This document shows positions 2,873-19,698 of a DNA stretch of 36,305 bases, piece by piece; within the stretch, counting starts at the first letter, position 1, and every line of letters starts with the position of its first letter. Source of the DNA: an uncultured Pseudomonadota bacterium. GTDB lineage: Bacteria; Bdellovibrionota_B; Oligoflexia; Oligoflexales; CAIYRB01. Made by a program: the position numbers and the translations under genes. The DNA lies in contig CAIWTN010000207.1 in NCBI GenBank assembly GCA_903915625.1, positions 1 to 36,305 on the forward strand, read 5' to 3'. The notes under the pieces are model-generated. The model did no database searches and was not told the DNA's origin. It was given only the letters and a program-made list of their open reading frames with translations.

Positions 2873-3901
2873 ATGAAGCACGCCCTAGGCTCAGCCATCC
2901 TGATCAGTTCTGTCGCACTGTCGATGACGGCTGCCAAGCCAAGATCAGAGCCGATCACTCCGATTGAAGCAGTAAAAGTCACAAACCCAGCAAAAGTTTC
3001 ACTCGGCACGATGTTATATTTCGAGCCTCGCCTCTCGAAGTCGGGGTCCATCTCGTGCAACTCTTGTCATAACTTAATGACGAGTGGAGCCGACAATCTA
3101 CCAAGCTCCATAGGCCACGGCTGGCAGCTTGGTCCTATCAACTCGCCCACCGTATTCAACTCAAAATATAACCTAGCCCAATTTTGGGACGGTCGCGCAA
3201 AAGACCTCAGCGAGCAAGCGGGCGGTCCTATCGCAAATCCAGGCGAAATGGGATCTACGCATGAGCTAGCTACGGAAACTTTGCAATCGATTCCAGAGTA
3301 CCGAGCACTGTTCAAGAAAGTATACGGTACAGACAAGGTAAATATTGCTAACGTGCAAGATGCAATCGCTGCCTTTGAAGAGACCCTGGTGACGCCTAAT
3401 TCACGCTTTGACCAATGGCTGAAAGGTAGTGACAAGGCCCTAACTGCGACAGAGCTCCGCGGTTACGAAACATTTAAAAACAAAGGCTGCGTCGCCTGCC
3501 ACAGCGGCCCTGGCGTCGGCGGCGGCATGTACCAAAAGTTTGGTTTAGTAAAACCATACGCTGGAAATGACCATCCTGGCGCACAGGTCGGTCGCTTTGC
3601 CGTGACGAAAAACGAAACTGACAAGTTTGTCTTCAAAGTTCCACTGCTGCGTAACATCGAACTAACTGCACCGTATTTCCATGATGGCTCGCATTGGACT
3701 CTCGAAGAGACGGTAAAAACTATGGCCAATGTCCAACTTGGTCAAACATTGACCGATGCTGAGGCCGGCGACATTGTTGCATTCCTCAAAACACTGACTG
3801 GTGAACGGCCGAAAATTTCCATGCCACTTCTGCCGCCGTCCACTAACACTACGCCGCACCCCGACCTCACCGTTGCGCCCAAGGCAGCAACTAGCGGCTA
3901 A
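2873..3901 (+). CDS. Periplasmic di-haem cytochrome c peroxidase (CcpA/MauG family)
   Basis: This is a 342-residue exported protein. Family members reduce hydrogen peroxide to water in the periplasm using electrons from c-type cytochromes. The N-terminus is a Sec signal peptide (Lys then a hydrophobic run, ending near SMTAA). Two haem-attachment motifs are visible: CNSCH (Cys62, Cys65, His66) and CVACH (Cys206, Cys209, His210), the spacing expected for a two-domain peroxidase. Between them are LGTMLYFEPRLSKSGSISC, FWDGRAKDLSEQA and the NPGEMG segment typical of bacterial CcpAs. PYFHDGSHWTLEETV near the C-terminus is also typical. The length fits the family (about 320-350). It stands alone, followed by a strong hairpin. 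MauG-like enzymes with other substrates share the same domains and cannot be excluded. Confidence 0.93.
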   Translation: MKHALGSAILISSVALSMTAAKPRSEPITPIEAVKVTNPAKVSLGTMLYFEPRLSKSGSISCNSCHNLMTSGADNLPSSIGHGWQLGPINSPTVFNSKYNLAQFWDGRAKDLSEQAGGPIANPGEMGSTHELATETLQSIPEYRALFKKVYGTDKVNIANVQDAIAAFEETLVTPNSRFDQWLKGSDKALTATELRGYETFKNKGCVACHSGPGVGGGMYQKFGLVKPYAGNDHPGAQVGRFAVTKNETDKFVFKVPLLRNIELTAPYFHDGSHWTLEETVKTMANVQLGQTLTDAEAGDIVAFLKTLTGERPKISMPLLPPSTNTTPHPDLTVAPKAATSG

Positions 3902-4029: not shown

Positions 4030-4512
4030 CTAGTGCGCAACATCAAGCGGCTTATCACTCTCAACTTGAAGTTGCAGCCCCTCAGTGACACCAGCGATCG
4101 CTTCAGCAATCACCGTAATTGGCGCCAGATCTTTAATCGGATAAAGGAACGGCGTATCTGGACTTACCCGAACATACTGGACCCTCTCCGAATTTTGATC
4201 GAAGATTGCGAGCCGCAAGGATCTGATCATACCTTGATTTAAATTGACCGGCATAAACCGCAGCGTCTGTGGCATGTCGGTGCCAGTTAATACGACTCTT
4301 GACGTTAACGGCACGTAAGTCGTGGCAGGTCGGGGCATGGTGACGTTTTTACCCTTGGGCAATCGCTCGAGGCTAAAGCCGGAGGGAGATTGGCTAGCAG
4401 CATGCGTTATTTTTTTCGCTGACTTAGCAAACGCGGGTCTTATCAGAGCTGCATCGACTAAGGCAGCACCGATAAAAGCAGCACCGATAAAAGCAGCTTG
4501 TTTGACCCGCAT
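4030..4512 (-). CDS. Small exported protein of unknown function
   Basis: This 160-residue protein has a signal peptide built partly from a repeated AAFIG unit (residues 7-16), ending near RPAFA. The mature part (about 130 residues) is predicted beta-rich, with YVPLTSRVVL, LRLAIFD and YVRVSPDTPFLYP strands and no cysteines. I do not recognise it. The beta pattern could fit a small periplasmic beta-sandwich protein. The signal-peptide repeat is mirrored in the DNA as a perfect 15-base tandem duplication at 4463-4492. It is convergent with the peroxidase gene and divergent from pilT. Confidence 0.7.
   Translation of the reverse strand: MRVKQAAFIGAAFIGAALVDAALIRPAFAKSAKKITHAASQSPSGFSLERLPKGKNVTMPRPATTYVPLTSRVVLTGTDMPQTLRFMPVNLNQGMIRSLRLAIFDQNSERVQYVRVSPDTPFLYPIKDLAPITVIAEAIAGVTEGLQLQVESDKPLDVAH
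4463..4492. repeat. 15-bp tandem duplication inside a signal-peptide coding region
   Basis: The unit GCAGCACCGATAAAA occurs at 4463-4477 and again at 4478-4492, followed by a further GCAGC. On the minus strand each unit adds five residues to the hydrophobic core of the signal peptide of the gene at 4030-4512. The perfect identity suggests a recent replication-slippage event. Confidence 0.85.
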
Positions 4513-11508: not shown

Positions 11509-11612
11509 GGGGTCGGGCACTGGCGCTAAGCTACTGAAAGTCTATGTACTATTGTAGCCATGTTTTGTGGTGTTCTAATGGTGTCGATGAGTTGCTCGAA
11601 GTGCCCGACCCC
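11509..11612 (+). repeat. Element copy A: 104-bp repeat with perfect 13-bp terminal inverted repeats
   Basis: The ends GGGGTCGGGCACT (11509-11521) and AGTGCCCGACCCC (11600-11612) are perfect complements. The interior (GGCGCTAAGCTACTGAAA ... TCTAATGGTGTCGATGAGTT) recurs in copy B at roughly 80% identity, including both ends. It has no coding capacity. Architecture and size fit a small non-autonomous element (MITE-like) or a RAYT-associated REP-type element. No transposase is visible in the window. It abuts the truncated 3' end of a tail-fibre-like gene. Confidence 0.85.
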
Positions 11613-11892
11613 AAGAAGCATGTAAACCGTCCCGTTGGCAAGGCAGGTCCAGCCCGTAGTTCCGTTGGGCTTGGTTTGTTGGACCGCGCCAGAGGCTAAA
11701 TCACACCCGCCTCCGAGCACTTGCTTGCCAGCTGAACAAGAGACAGAACATATATTGCTCGACGGACAAGTGGCCACGACCTGTTCGTAGCCCATTGCTA
11801 TCGATCCAGTGCCAACATCCAGAGCCGCAGTTGGCGCCGTAGAACCGATCCCGACGTTGCCGAAAAGTCAGATACATGTCGTTGGACGCCAT
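11613..11892 (-). pseudogene. Remnant of a tail-fibre-like gene (GNVGIG / Cys-rich C-terminal domain)
   Basis: On the minus strand one frame reads GNVGIGSTAPTAALDVGTGS then GYEQVVATCPSSNICSVSCS, GKQVLGGGCDLAS and PNGTTGWTCLANGTVYMLL. The GNVGIG..AP.A.LDV motif is a hallmark of phage tail-fibre and long bacterial surface proteins. The Cys-rich GYE..TATC/GGGC/WTC block is a C-terminal domain found on such proteins. Just upstream, NDMYLTF continues the pattern in another frame, so a frameshift lies near 11862. The gene is cut at its 3' end by element A, which supplies the last codons, and it lacks its main N-terminal body. I call it a dead fragment. The short open frame at 11526-11795 is not a functional gene. 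Confidence 0.7.
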
Positions 11893-11937
11893 GGCTCACG
11901 ATTGCTAAAGACACCGCGATGACTACCGGAGGATTTC

Positions 11938-12285
11938 ATGACTCAAGTGGCGCACCATGTCGGAGTCATGCGCAGCGGCAAGGCAGTACAGGCACCGATC
12001 TTCAGCGATGAGCCGAAGCCAGAATTACCAGCGGCGTGCGCGTTATTCACCCCGGCCGATCACTTTGATGCACACGCGGTGTTCGAGTCTCTAATCTCAA
12101 GGGAACTAAGCCGCGGTGCAACGGACACCCGTGCATTGCTCACGTATGATCAAATGAGCACTGCCCACAAGTCCGAGCTAGATGCGGACTGGCTGAAGTC
12201 CGAGCGCTTAGCCCTTGGTCTGGCGACGATTTTTGCAATCCTTAATCATGGCAAGGGTCTTGCTGATCGTATCTTCCAAGATTAG
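11938..12285 (+). CDS. Hypothetical protein between the two repeat elements
   Basis: This encodes 115 residues with an excellent ribosome site (CGGAGGA six bases before the ATG), the best argument that it is or was translated. The protein is soluble and acidic, mostly helical in the second half (HFDAHAVFESLISRELSRGA, DADWLKSERLALGLATIFAI), with no signal peptide. I do not recognise a family. It lies inside the interval bounded by repeat elements A and B. Its last 78 bases overlap antisense with the convergent gene ending at 12208, which is unusually long for real neighbours, so the C-terminal end of one of the two may be disrupted. Confidence 0.6.
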   Translation: MTQVAHHVGVMRSGKAVQAPIFSDEPKPELPAACALFTPADHFDAHAVFESLISRELSRGATDTRALLTYDQMSTAHKSELDADWLKSERLALGLATIFAILNHGKGLADRIFQD

Positions 12286-12657
12286 ATGCCAATCAGGAGC
12301 GAGTAGTTGGTTGCAGGAAATGTTGGGATCGGCATCACCATCCGCAAGGAAATAAACTGTCGTTCGTCCTGGCACGAACCGGTTTACATACCGATCTGAT
12401 TCGAACGTGATGATATGATAGGCCGGGTCGCGCCGGACAAAGTCCAAGAGAATATCGGCCTTCTCGCTGTCAAATCCACCCAATATGGTGTCAGGCTCCA
12501 GGCCGAGGTGCAGCAGTTCCTGCCAGAGATATAACCTTCCGGTCCGCTCGGCAAATGCAACGCCGTCGGTGTAGAGATCGGGGGTTGGCTTGGCGCTGGC
12601 TCCCACTTCAAAAACCCTCACAGTATAGAACCTAGTCTCATGGACTCCTTTCGGCAC
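12208..12657 (-). CDS. Hypothetical protein between the repeat elements
   Basis: From GTG 12657 this is 149 residues. The protein reads like a real alpha/beta domain: FYTVRVFEVGAS, RLYLWQELLHLGLEPDTIL, KADILLDFVRRDPAYHIITF, GRTTVYFLADGDADP and a helical end. It has no signal peptide or membrane segment, and I recognise no family. No Shine-Dalgarno sequence precedes the GTG; another GTG at about 12621 is possible. It overlaps the 3' end of the convergent 115-residue gene by 78 bases, and its 5' end lies close to element B. Both unknown genes may have arrived together as cargo. Confidence 0.55.
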   Translation of the reverse strand: MPKGVHETRFYTVRVFEVGASAKPTPDLYTDGVAFAERTGRLYLWQELLHLGLEPDTILGGFDSEKADILLDFVRRDPAYHIITFESDRYVNRFVPGRTTVYFLADGDADPNISCNQLLAPDWHLILEDTISKTLAMIKDCKNRRQTKG

Positions 12658-12686
12658 AATCCCAAGTATGCTTGAGAGCTAGGGGG

Positions 12687-12789
12687 GGGGCGGGCACTGG
12701 CGCTAAGCTAATGAAAGCCTTAGATCTTTTGTAGTCAGGTTTTGTGGTCTTCTAATGGTGTCAATGAGTTGCTAGCAGTGCCCCGCCCC
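12687..12789 (+). repeat. Element copy B: ~103-bp repeat related to copy A
   Basis: This copy is in the same orientation as copy A, 1178 bases downstream. Its left end GGGGCGGGCACTG and right end CAGTGCCCCGCCCC are inverted repeats with one base of difference. The interior shares CTGGCGCTAAGCTA, ATGAAAG, GTTTTGTGGT, TTCTAATGGTGTC and ATGAGTTGCT with A. A run of nine G precedes it (12682-12690). It lies 16 bases from the stop codon of a second tail-fibre-like remnant. Confidence 0.85.
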
Positions 12790-12805
12790 AGGAAGTAACG
12801 TTCAG

Positions 12806-13048
12806 CTAATCACGGCAGAATTGCTCACTTGCATGGTCTAAGCAGACGATATCTTTCAATGCTCTTACTTCGTCTTTTAGTTTCTTGTTCTCTGCATCAA
12901 GGATTTTTATCGCTTCAATCATTGGCGCTATCAACGAGGAATGGGACACTGACTTAGTTTTTTCGCTATCGTTAGCGGTCATTACAGCTTCAGGAAATAC
13001 TCGCTCTACCTCCCCTGTTATCCATTTCGTCTGTTCGTCAACAAGTTC
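12806..13048 (-). pseudogene. Remnant of a peptidase S74-type tail-fibre chaperone domain
   Basis: An 80-codon open stretch without a proper start ends at TAG (12806-12808). It reads GEVERVFPEAVMTANDSEKT, then SVSHSSLIAPMIEAIKILDA and a coiled-coil end ENKKLKDEVRALKDIVC. This is the pattern of the intramolecular chaperone domain (peptidase S74), whose core is QEVE..FPE.V ... V.Y..L...L.EAI..L...N..L. That domain sits at the C-terminus of phage tail fibres and some surface proteins. A stop (13049-13051) closes the frame immediately upstream, and the usual S.R.LKKNI part is missing, so this is a fragment. It is on the same strand as the other fibre remnant and likewise ends beside a copy of the repeat element. 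Confidence 0.7.
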
Positions 13049-13849
13049 CTAAAACTTTAGGAAAAAAGGCAATAATCCAATATTATTGGTATTCATGAGA
13101 CCGTTTTTTTTGCGAAGGAAAACTCGATCCTTAGGTAAACAAGAAAATACAGTCGTTACGGGCTCATGCGAAGTCCGCACGGTGGGTTCGATGGCATCGA
13201 GTACTCCATCCCAGGACACTATACGAACAGCCGACGGAACGGAACACCACCGGATCGTAATGTAGCTGGGTCAACTCATTGGAGCCATTCGCACGAATCC
13301 CTTTACCTGATCGAGTCGTACGCACTTTCCTTCCCAGATGAAAGCTCGACTTGGTCAGTTCACGGCATATCCGAGACTCGCATTAGTAAGGCTGAAGATG
13401 GTAGCAATAATTGGTTGTGGAACCAGACATAAAGATCAATCATCCATTTCAAACATGCGAGCCTCTTGGTTTTACACCAGGTGCAACGGCTTAGGCGTTT
13501 AAGGTTATCTTGAACCATTGCGCAGGTATGCCTAGTCGCTGCCGCGTGGCATGGAAATTACACAGGATCACTCTCGCCTGGTCTTTGGCGGACATCTGCA
13601 AGTGACTGTTCATTTTACTTGACGCATTTTAGCGGGCTTCAAACTGAGCATTTATTGCGCCAAAAACACAGTCGACCGATTTTTTCATCCCACCCAAAAG
13701 TTAACGCAGTAGTTTTGATCTCTGGCGACATGGCCGGTTATCTATTTTCCATCGACAATAGCGATCGCGATTCACCCAAAAAAAGCCGTGATAAATAAAT
13801 GCTGTCAGTGCTGTTTAACCGCAATTTATGTTTGCGTTGGAGCTGCCTT
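13049..13849. other. Gene-poor accessory DNA
   Basis: About 800 bases lack a convincing gene. An 88-codon open frame on the plus strand (13166-13432) and a 40-codon frame on the minus strand (13491-13613) have no ribosome site or recognisable protein. I see no transposase, tRNA or repeat here. AT-rich stretches at 13085-13115 and 13775-13800 may carry promoter elements, the latter for the HNH gene. The region looks like decayed or non-coding accessory DNA. Confidence 0.5.
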
Positions 13850-19623: not shown

Positions 19624-19698
19624 GGCCCCATAGTTCAAGGGATAGAATAAGCCTTTCCTAAAGGTTAGATGCATGTTCGAGTCATGCTGGGGCCGCCA
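19624..19698 (+). tRNA. tRNA-Arg (anticodon CCT)
   Basis: A complete cloverleaf can be drawn. Acceptor GGCCCCA (19624-19630) pairs with TGGGGCC (19688-19694), followed by discriminator G and an encoded CCA (19696-19698). The D arm is GTTC...GAAT. The anticodon stem AGCCT/AGGTT closes the loop TTCCTAA with anticodon CCT, which reads AGG. The T stem GCATG/CATGC encloses the TTCGAGT loop. It is antisense to the 3' end of the pentapeptide-repeat gene, overlapping its last 17 bases. Confidence 0.95.

Follow-up and report, generated by a model that had tools for sequence, protein, structure and literature searches.

Dimeric repeats sharing their ends with a Y1/HUH transposase gene, probably of TIRYT type, and clustering of breakpoints at repeat edges in an uncultured bacterium

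The two 104-bp repeats, A and B, found in the window (the whole 36,305-nucleotide stretch analysed, which is the entire contig C207) are probably non-autonomous inverted dimers served by a TIRYT-type Y1/HUH transposase, which is proposed to cut the outer edges of the repeat units and to rearrange the adjoining DNA. The repeats belong to a family dispersed in the genome, and matching ends lie round a transposase gene. The spelling of the ends varies with the transposase among congeners, and breakpoints detected by comparison with a sister species are concentrated at unit edges. The transposase would act by nicking DNA strands, as judged from these sequence comparisons.

Copies A (11509-11612) and B (12686-12789) are both 104 bp long, reside on the same (plus) strand with a start-to-start distance of 1177 bp, and are 85% identical over 110 nt, similarity extending about 6 nt to the right of the 104 bp, up to 11618 and 12795. 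Copy A, delimited by alignment, genome matches and folding, is an inverted dimer of the end unit and falls in spacing class 90. Its left end, GGGGTCGGGCACT (11509-11521, plus strand), includes the exact family 12-mer at 11510-11521, and its right end (11600-11612, minus strand) is a perfect inverted copy of the left one. Copy B is a second dimer with slightly decayed ends, which are alike at 11 of 13 positions when read directly from the sequence (GGGGGCGGGCACT and, as reverse complement, GGGGCGGGGCACT). An earlier note, made from the window alone, had described two direct copies of an element with inverted-repeat ends, perfect over 13 bp in A and nearly the same in B, and the description is accurate. 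The long foldback mentioned in the same note is found in copy A, folded as single-stranded DNA (-19.9 kcal/mol, z -5.1), and is weak in copy B (z only -2.1). That the repeat is the only dispersed family of the window, as also claimed, is doubtful, because the DNA intervening between A and B is itself multi-copy in the genus. No matching direct repeats, of the kind expected for target-site duplications, were seen in the inspected flanks of either copy. Copy A occupies the equivalent site in the sister species (G005), after 1.6 kb of 92.6% identical DNA, and must therefore be old; homology to the sister genome ends at 11613, one base beyond the element. The window also hosts a tRNA gene at 19624-19695 (Rfam RF00005, 57.9 bits), the only known RNA found in it.

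The genome to which the window belongs (G000) spans 4.42 Mb in 252 contigs, and the 104-bp query has 22 matches in it. Near-full-length copies number 13: one of 85 bp, and 12 in which at most one of the 104 bp is missing and identity is 80-100%. Two further full-length matches, weaker at 70-73%, are left out of this count. Exact occurrences of the end 12-mer GGGTCRGGCACT amount to 102, against none for the reversed control. This copy number rules out a local duplication, and denotes a multi-copy non-autonomous element; the case of two copies only, with no matching transposase, which the earlier note had set against its own proposal, clearly does not apply. Unique ends retrieved from the genome are 117, of which 63 have an inverted mate and 54 are single. 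Nearly all the inverted pairs feature discrete spacings of 90, 66, 91 or 84, the commonest being 90 (104-bp dimers) and 66 (80-bp dimers). The unit consensus, about 36 nt long, is roughly TG-GGGTCRGGCACT-NNCNSYAACYNNCTGAAATYA, with the core GGGGTCRGGCACT. Many units sit near gene ends, in apparently intergenic DNA. A search of the open-access literature with the end sequence retrieved only apparently unrelated papers.

Neither folding nor mutual pairing of units revealed a consistent or common hairpin within the unit, and no convincing pair emerged from column covariation in the unit alignment. Moreover, a dimer-type foldback is precluded in roughly one unit out of two, for lack of a mate near enough to pair with. 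The proposal that single-strand hairpins are recognized, put forward in the earlier note, is consequently not supported. At position 6, where A and G alternate, the two ends of a dimer agree in 22 of 29 cases (shuffle mean 15.8; a value reached in 0.9% of the shuffles), which hints weakly at a role of pairing, or of joint descent.

Only one Y1 gene in the genome is flanked by ends of the family. It encodes a Y1/HUH transposase of 183 aa (C147:3751-4302), and carries the motifs HWH (residue 60) and YVERN (residue 122), corresponding to the HUH and to the catalytic tyrosine (Y...N). The locus (L041) has two plus-oriented ends upstream, at 3538 and 3596, and one inverted end downstream, at 4307, which begins about 5 bp past the stop codon. 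The protein scores 49.8 bits against Y1_Tnp, above the Pfam cut-off, and 64 bits against the NCBIfam model REP_Tyr_transpos, below the curated cut-off of 80. Y1_Tnp is the only Pfam domain at E<=0.001, no C-terminal helix-turn-helix being detected, and no PDB relative was found by phmmer. The IS200-type genes residing on contigs C119, C186 and C139 were considered as partners, and discarded as no family ends lie beside them. The element had been tentatively regarded as a MITE, or as the small partner of a RAYT transposase encoded elsewhere; the partnership stands, with a Y1/HUH transposase as the partner, while identity with a canonical REP is not supported, and a classical DDE MITE is very improbable. 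The transposase locus is kept in the sister genome (contig C6), with equal layout and 95% protein identity. The sister genome lacks 510 bp (L041:4327-4836) which adjoin the downstream end of the transposase element and lie inside the neighbouring gene.

The end sequence varies among genomes. GGGTCRGGCACT is found 102 times in G000 and 132 times in the sister species, and only 3, 8, 1 and 0 times in G001, G002, G003 and G004, respectively. The variant end GGGTCAGTCACT is in turn represented 37 times in G001, 48 in G002 and 8 in G000. The transposase of G001, 69% identical and split by contig ends, is flanked by GGGTCAGTCACT. End spelling and transposase therefore co-vary between congeners, with the one exception of G002, in which no transposase was found at this search sensitivity despite the 48 variant ends; the exception may denote loss of the transposase, or an incomplete assembly. 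In a different genus (G006) the transposase gene (L297:862-1765) is associated with GTGTCAGTCACC ends, and has the same layout, with two plus-oriented ends upstream. Genes of distant homologues in several phyla are surrounded by inverted ends of the GGGGTC, GGTGTC or GGGGAC type.

Breakpoints were monitored by looking in the sister species for the sequences that flank 44 units on their outer side, along with the far-side flanks of 24 of these and of the two window copies; the compared genomes are fragmented metagenome draft assemblies, and one sister species was available. At about nine loci both flanks are found on one contig of the sister genome, wider apart than in G000 by 0.86-4.2 kb. One junction is located at, or at most 8 bp from, the GGGG of the unit at L099, L124 and L109, where the opposite junction is devoid of a unit; element sequence is present at both sides of the extra segment at L108, L113 and L121, and the junction falls within the unit, or just beyond, at L096, L102, L106, L118 and L095. 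When all the retrieved pairs are pooled, the homology blocks have 102 ends, and 28 of these fall no more than 6 bp from a unit's outer edge. Circular shifting, repeated 500 times and confined to the same loci, all picked for containing units, gave 1.3 such ends on average and never more than 7. Once duplicate loci are removed, the offset profile shows 27 and 23 ends in the windows at -6 and 0 bp, and 0-9 at other offsets. Nine of the edge-coincident ends belong to blocks located wholly outside the unit, and hence have not been created by shared repeats. A separate repeated segment, which extends over at least 2.2 kb at two loci of G000 (L332:204-2447 and L333:326-2569), starts exactly at the outer edge of a unit; the start is the same, as far as the sequence reaches, at a third locus of G000 (L334:246-1031) and in the sister species (L248:4332-5001). 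The content of this segment resembles repetitive fibre-type coding sequence.

Unit edges are also marked by small duplications. Exact tandem duplications of at least 5 bp abut 15% of the unit edges in G000 and 1.5% of control positions, and 15 of 106 edges in the sister species against 2.0 expected, figures which in part reflect the flank shared by the 104-bp subfamily. These microduplications, about 5-9 bp long, are one-sided and directly abut the GGGG, as at L113:505-520 and at L315. In the latter two loci, which are orthologous, the duplicated word differs between the species, and each species has the same word in its two copies, as though the duplication had arisen anew. Microduplications can tentatively be interpreted as the repair scar of repeated nicking. 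None of the loci compared provided an unambiguous empty site for a copy of 104 bp. An 80-bp element in L127 was evaluated as an empty site and rejected, since the locus has a further difference, of about 225 bp, upstream. Flanks were too diverged, and cargo did not match, when G002 was used as outgroup, and the direction of change, gain or loss, is unpolarised for every event.

The extra segments of the sister genome are cassettes of 0.9-4 kb. Their genes encode a HicA toxin and its HTH partner, a HipA-type protein accompanied by an HTH protein, an AAA_14/DUF4143 ATPase, an FMN oxidoreductase and short proteins which on visual inspection look like lipoproteins; a convergent gene pair is present in two instances. 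Two AAA_14/DUF4143 ATPase genes reside between inverted unit dimers at L039:567-3239, and a third gene of this type is the extra DNA found in the sister species at another unit. In the window, the DNA between copies A and B hosts a convergent two-gene family, made of P1 (12208-12657, minus strand, about 130 aa, with the family match starting from about 12603) and its partner P2 (11938-12285, plus strand, 115 aa), the 3' ends of which overlap. Copy B is located about 80 bp upstream of the start of the P1 match. P1 is present in 14 copies in the genome, and 8 of them have a unit 65-235 bp upstream, against about 0.2 expected, as estimated from unit density. At L298:2068-5623 and L317:567-2690 the pair is organized in arrays, with units between copies in direct orientation. 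No Pfam family over cut-off and no convincing PADLOC match was obtained for P1 and P2, and no PDB fold was matched by their AlphaFold models, whose confidence is moderate (78.4 and 79.2). The minus-strand stretch at 11613-11860 (GNVGIGSTAPTAALDV...), cut off at copy A, looks by eye like part of a tail-fibre/Peptidase_S74-type gene; the counterpart in a relative (L258) runs on into a Peptidase_S74 gene, and we infer that the window holds a fragment of such a gene. Fragments of similar appearance flank the gene pair on both sides, at 11613-11860 and at about 12800-13100, both on the minus strand.

In the model proposed, the transposase would nick single-stranded DNA at the outer edge of the unit, just 5' of GGGG, the nicked strand being probably the lagging-strand template. 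Where two units are inverted, whatever lies between them could be mobilized: a dimer of 80 or 104 bp would travel in this way, and so would the transposase gene or a longer cassette. The gene pair lodged between copies A and B may represent one such cassette. A lone unit would give rise to one-sided events, in which neighbouring DNA is deleted, inserted or joined at the unit edge.

Cutting by the transposase has to be weighed against other sources of the breakpoints. The transposase may have spread the repeats, while breakpoints and cassettes derived solely from RecA-dependent recombination, through deletion between direct copies and integration of circles. The element flanks the extra segment on both sides at L108/L304, at L113/L314 plus L315 and at L121/L311, and arrays of units and gene pairs in direct orientation exist, in line with this scenario. 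Homologous recombination indeed explains some events, such as those at L108, L113 and L121, with no need of the transposase. As the sole source of rearrangements it is rather unlikely, given the loci L099, L124 and L109, where only one junction has a unit, and given that exchanges inside the repeat would not pile breakpoints on the edges of unit-free blocks, as observed for nine ends. It is improbable that units and cassettes are causally unrelated, and simply gather wherever intergenic DNA is permissive. Many units do lie near gene ends, and the DNA there, apparently intergenic, tolerates small insertions as well; the loci, too, were chosen for containing units; within these very loci, however, ends coincide with unit edges to within 6 bp far in excess of expectation (28 versus 1.3), and the profile drops to 0-9 at other offsets.

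The nature of the element itself can also be viewed differently. Terminal inverted repeats, small size and lack of coding capacity are shared with the classical MITEs derived from DDE insertion sequences, an origin made very improbable by the lack of target-site duplications at either window copy, and by the finding that the gene with the same ends encodes a Y1/HUH transposase. The hypothesis that the 104-bp elements are attC-like sites, and that cassettes are moved by an integron integrase, draws on the direct arrays of gene pairs of about 0.8-1 kb with one unit each, and on a toxin-antitoxin cargo reminiscent of sedentary chromosomal integrons. We regard it as the least credible of all, as just 3 of the 117 units contain the core motif RYYYAAC and 2 the core motif GTTRRRY, and the gene enclosed by ends of this family encodes a Y1/HUH transposase.

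If A and B are dimers dependent on a TIRYT-type transposase, a broader role of the enzyme may be contemplated, though on balance we would not expect it to hold. By cutting at the edges of single or paired units, TIRYTs could work as shufflers of gene cassettes, which insert, delete and amplify small cassettes, and play an integron-like role at dispersed sites. The cassettes involved would possibly be the toxin-antitoxin genes, the DUF4143 ATPases and the convergent pairs travelling with a unit. Were this so, a new route for the gain and loss of small modules would operate in uncultured bacteria. The change of spelling along with the transposase, and breakpoints set at the edges to within a few bases, lead in any case to a concrete prediction of the cleavage site.

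The family has points of contact with several known systems. As in the IS200/IS605 group (IS608, ISDra2), a Y1/HUH transposase acting on single strands is involved, and the gene represents the autonomous partner. IS200/IS605 elements have subterminal hairpins and no inverted ends, and the IS200-type genes of the genome (C119, C186 and C139) are devoid of family ends. Sedentary chromosomal integrons similarly host small cassettes, toxin-antitoxin pairs included, each with a short inverted-repeat site, but here loci are dispersed, the site sequence is different, and the enzyme is of the Y1/HUH type and not a tyrosine recombinase. REPINs and RAYTs (Bertels and Rainey 2011, PMC3116915; Nunvar et al. 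2010, PMC2817692) offer a closer parallel, being non-autonomous inverted doublets of about 100 bp in which each spelling is tied to one transposase. In contrast to them, the units described here have neither a GTAG guide nor a hairpin of their own, a 5' GTAG or GTGG at the foot of a hairpin being absent from the profile of the 117 ends, and the transposase falls short of the RAYT model (64 bits, cut-off 80).

The passages on TIRYTs and TIRtrons in the papers which named them report GGGGWSAS as the TIR consensus (Di Nocera et al. 2013, PMC3733652; Quentin et al. 2018, PMC6006769), and, according to those of the second study, most TIRYTs belong to a subclass characterized by a C-terminal HTH (PMC6006769). 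Mobility and cellular role of TIRYTs are left open in the same passages (PMC3733652, PMC6006769). The system described here conforms to them in that a Y1/HUH transposase is flanked by inverted ends, GGGGTCAG fits GGGGWSAS exactly, the GGGGTCGG subtype of end being one base off, and TIR repeats, distinct from GTAG REPs, occur genome-wide as single, paired or clustered units. It departs from them in the number of units, more than 100 per genome, in the lack of a detectable C-terminal helix-turn-helix, found in subclass 2.1 of Quentin et al., to which the transposase is accordingly not assigned, and in the coincidence of unit edges with cassette junctions, which is not described in those passages of PMC3733652 and PMC6006769. 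The family is best classified as a TIRYT-associated TIR repeat in dimer form, in preference to a GTAG REPIN or a DDE MITE.
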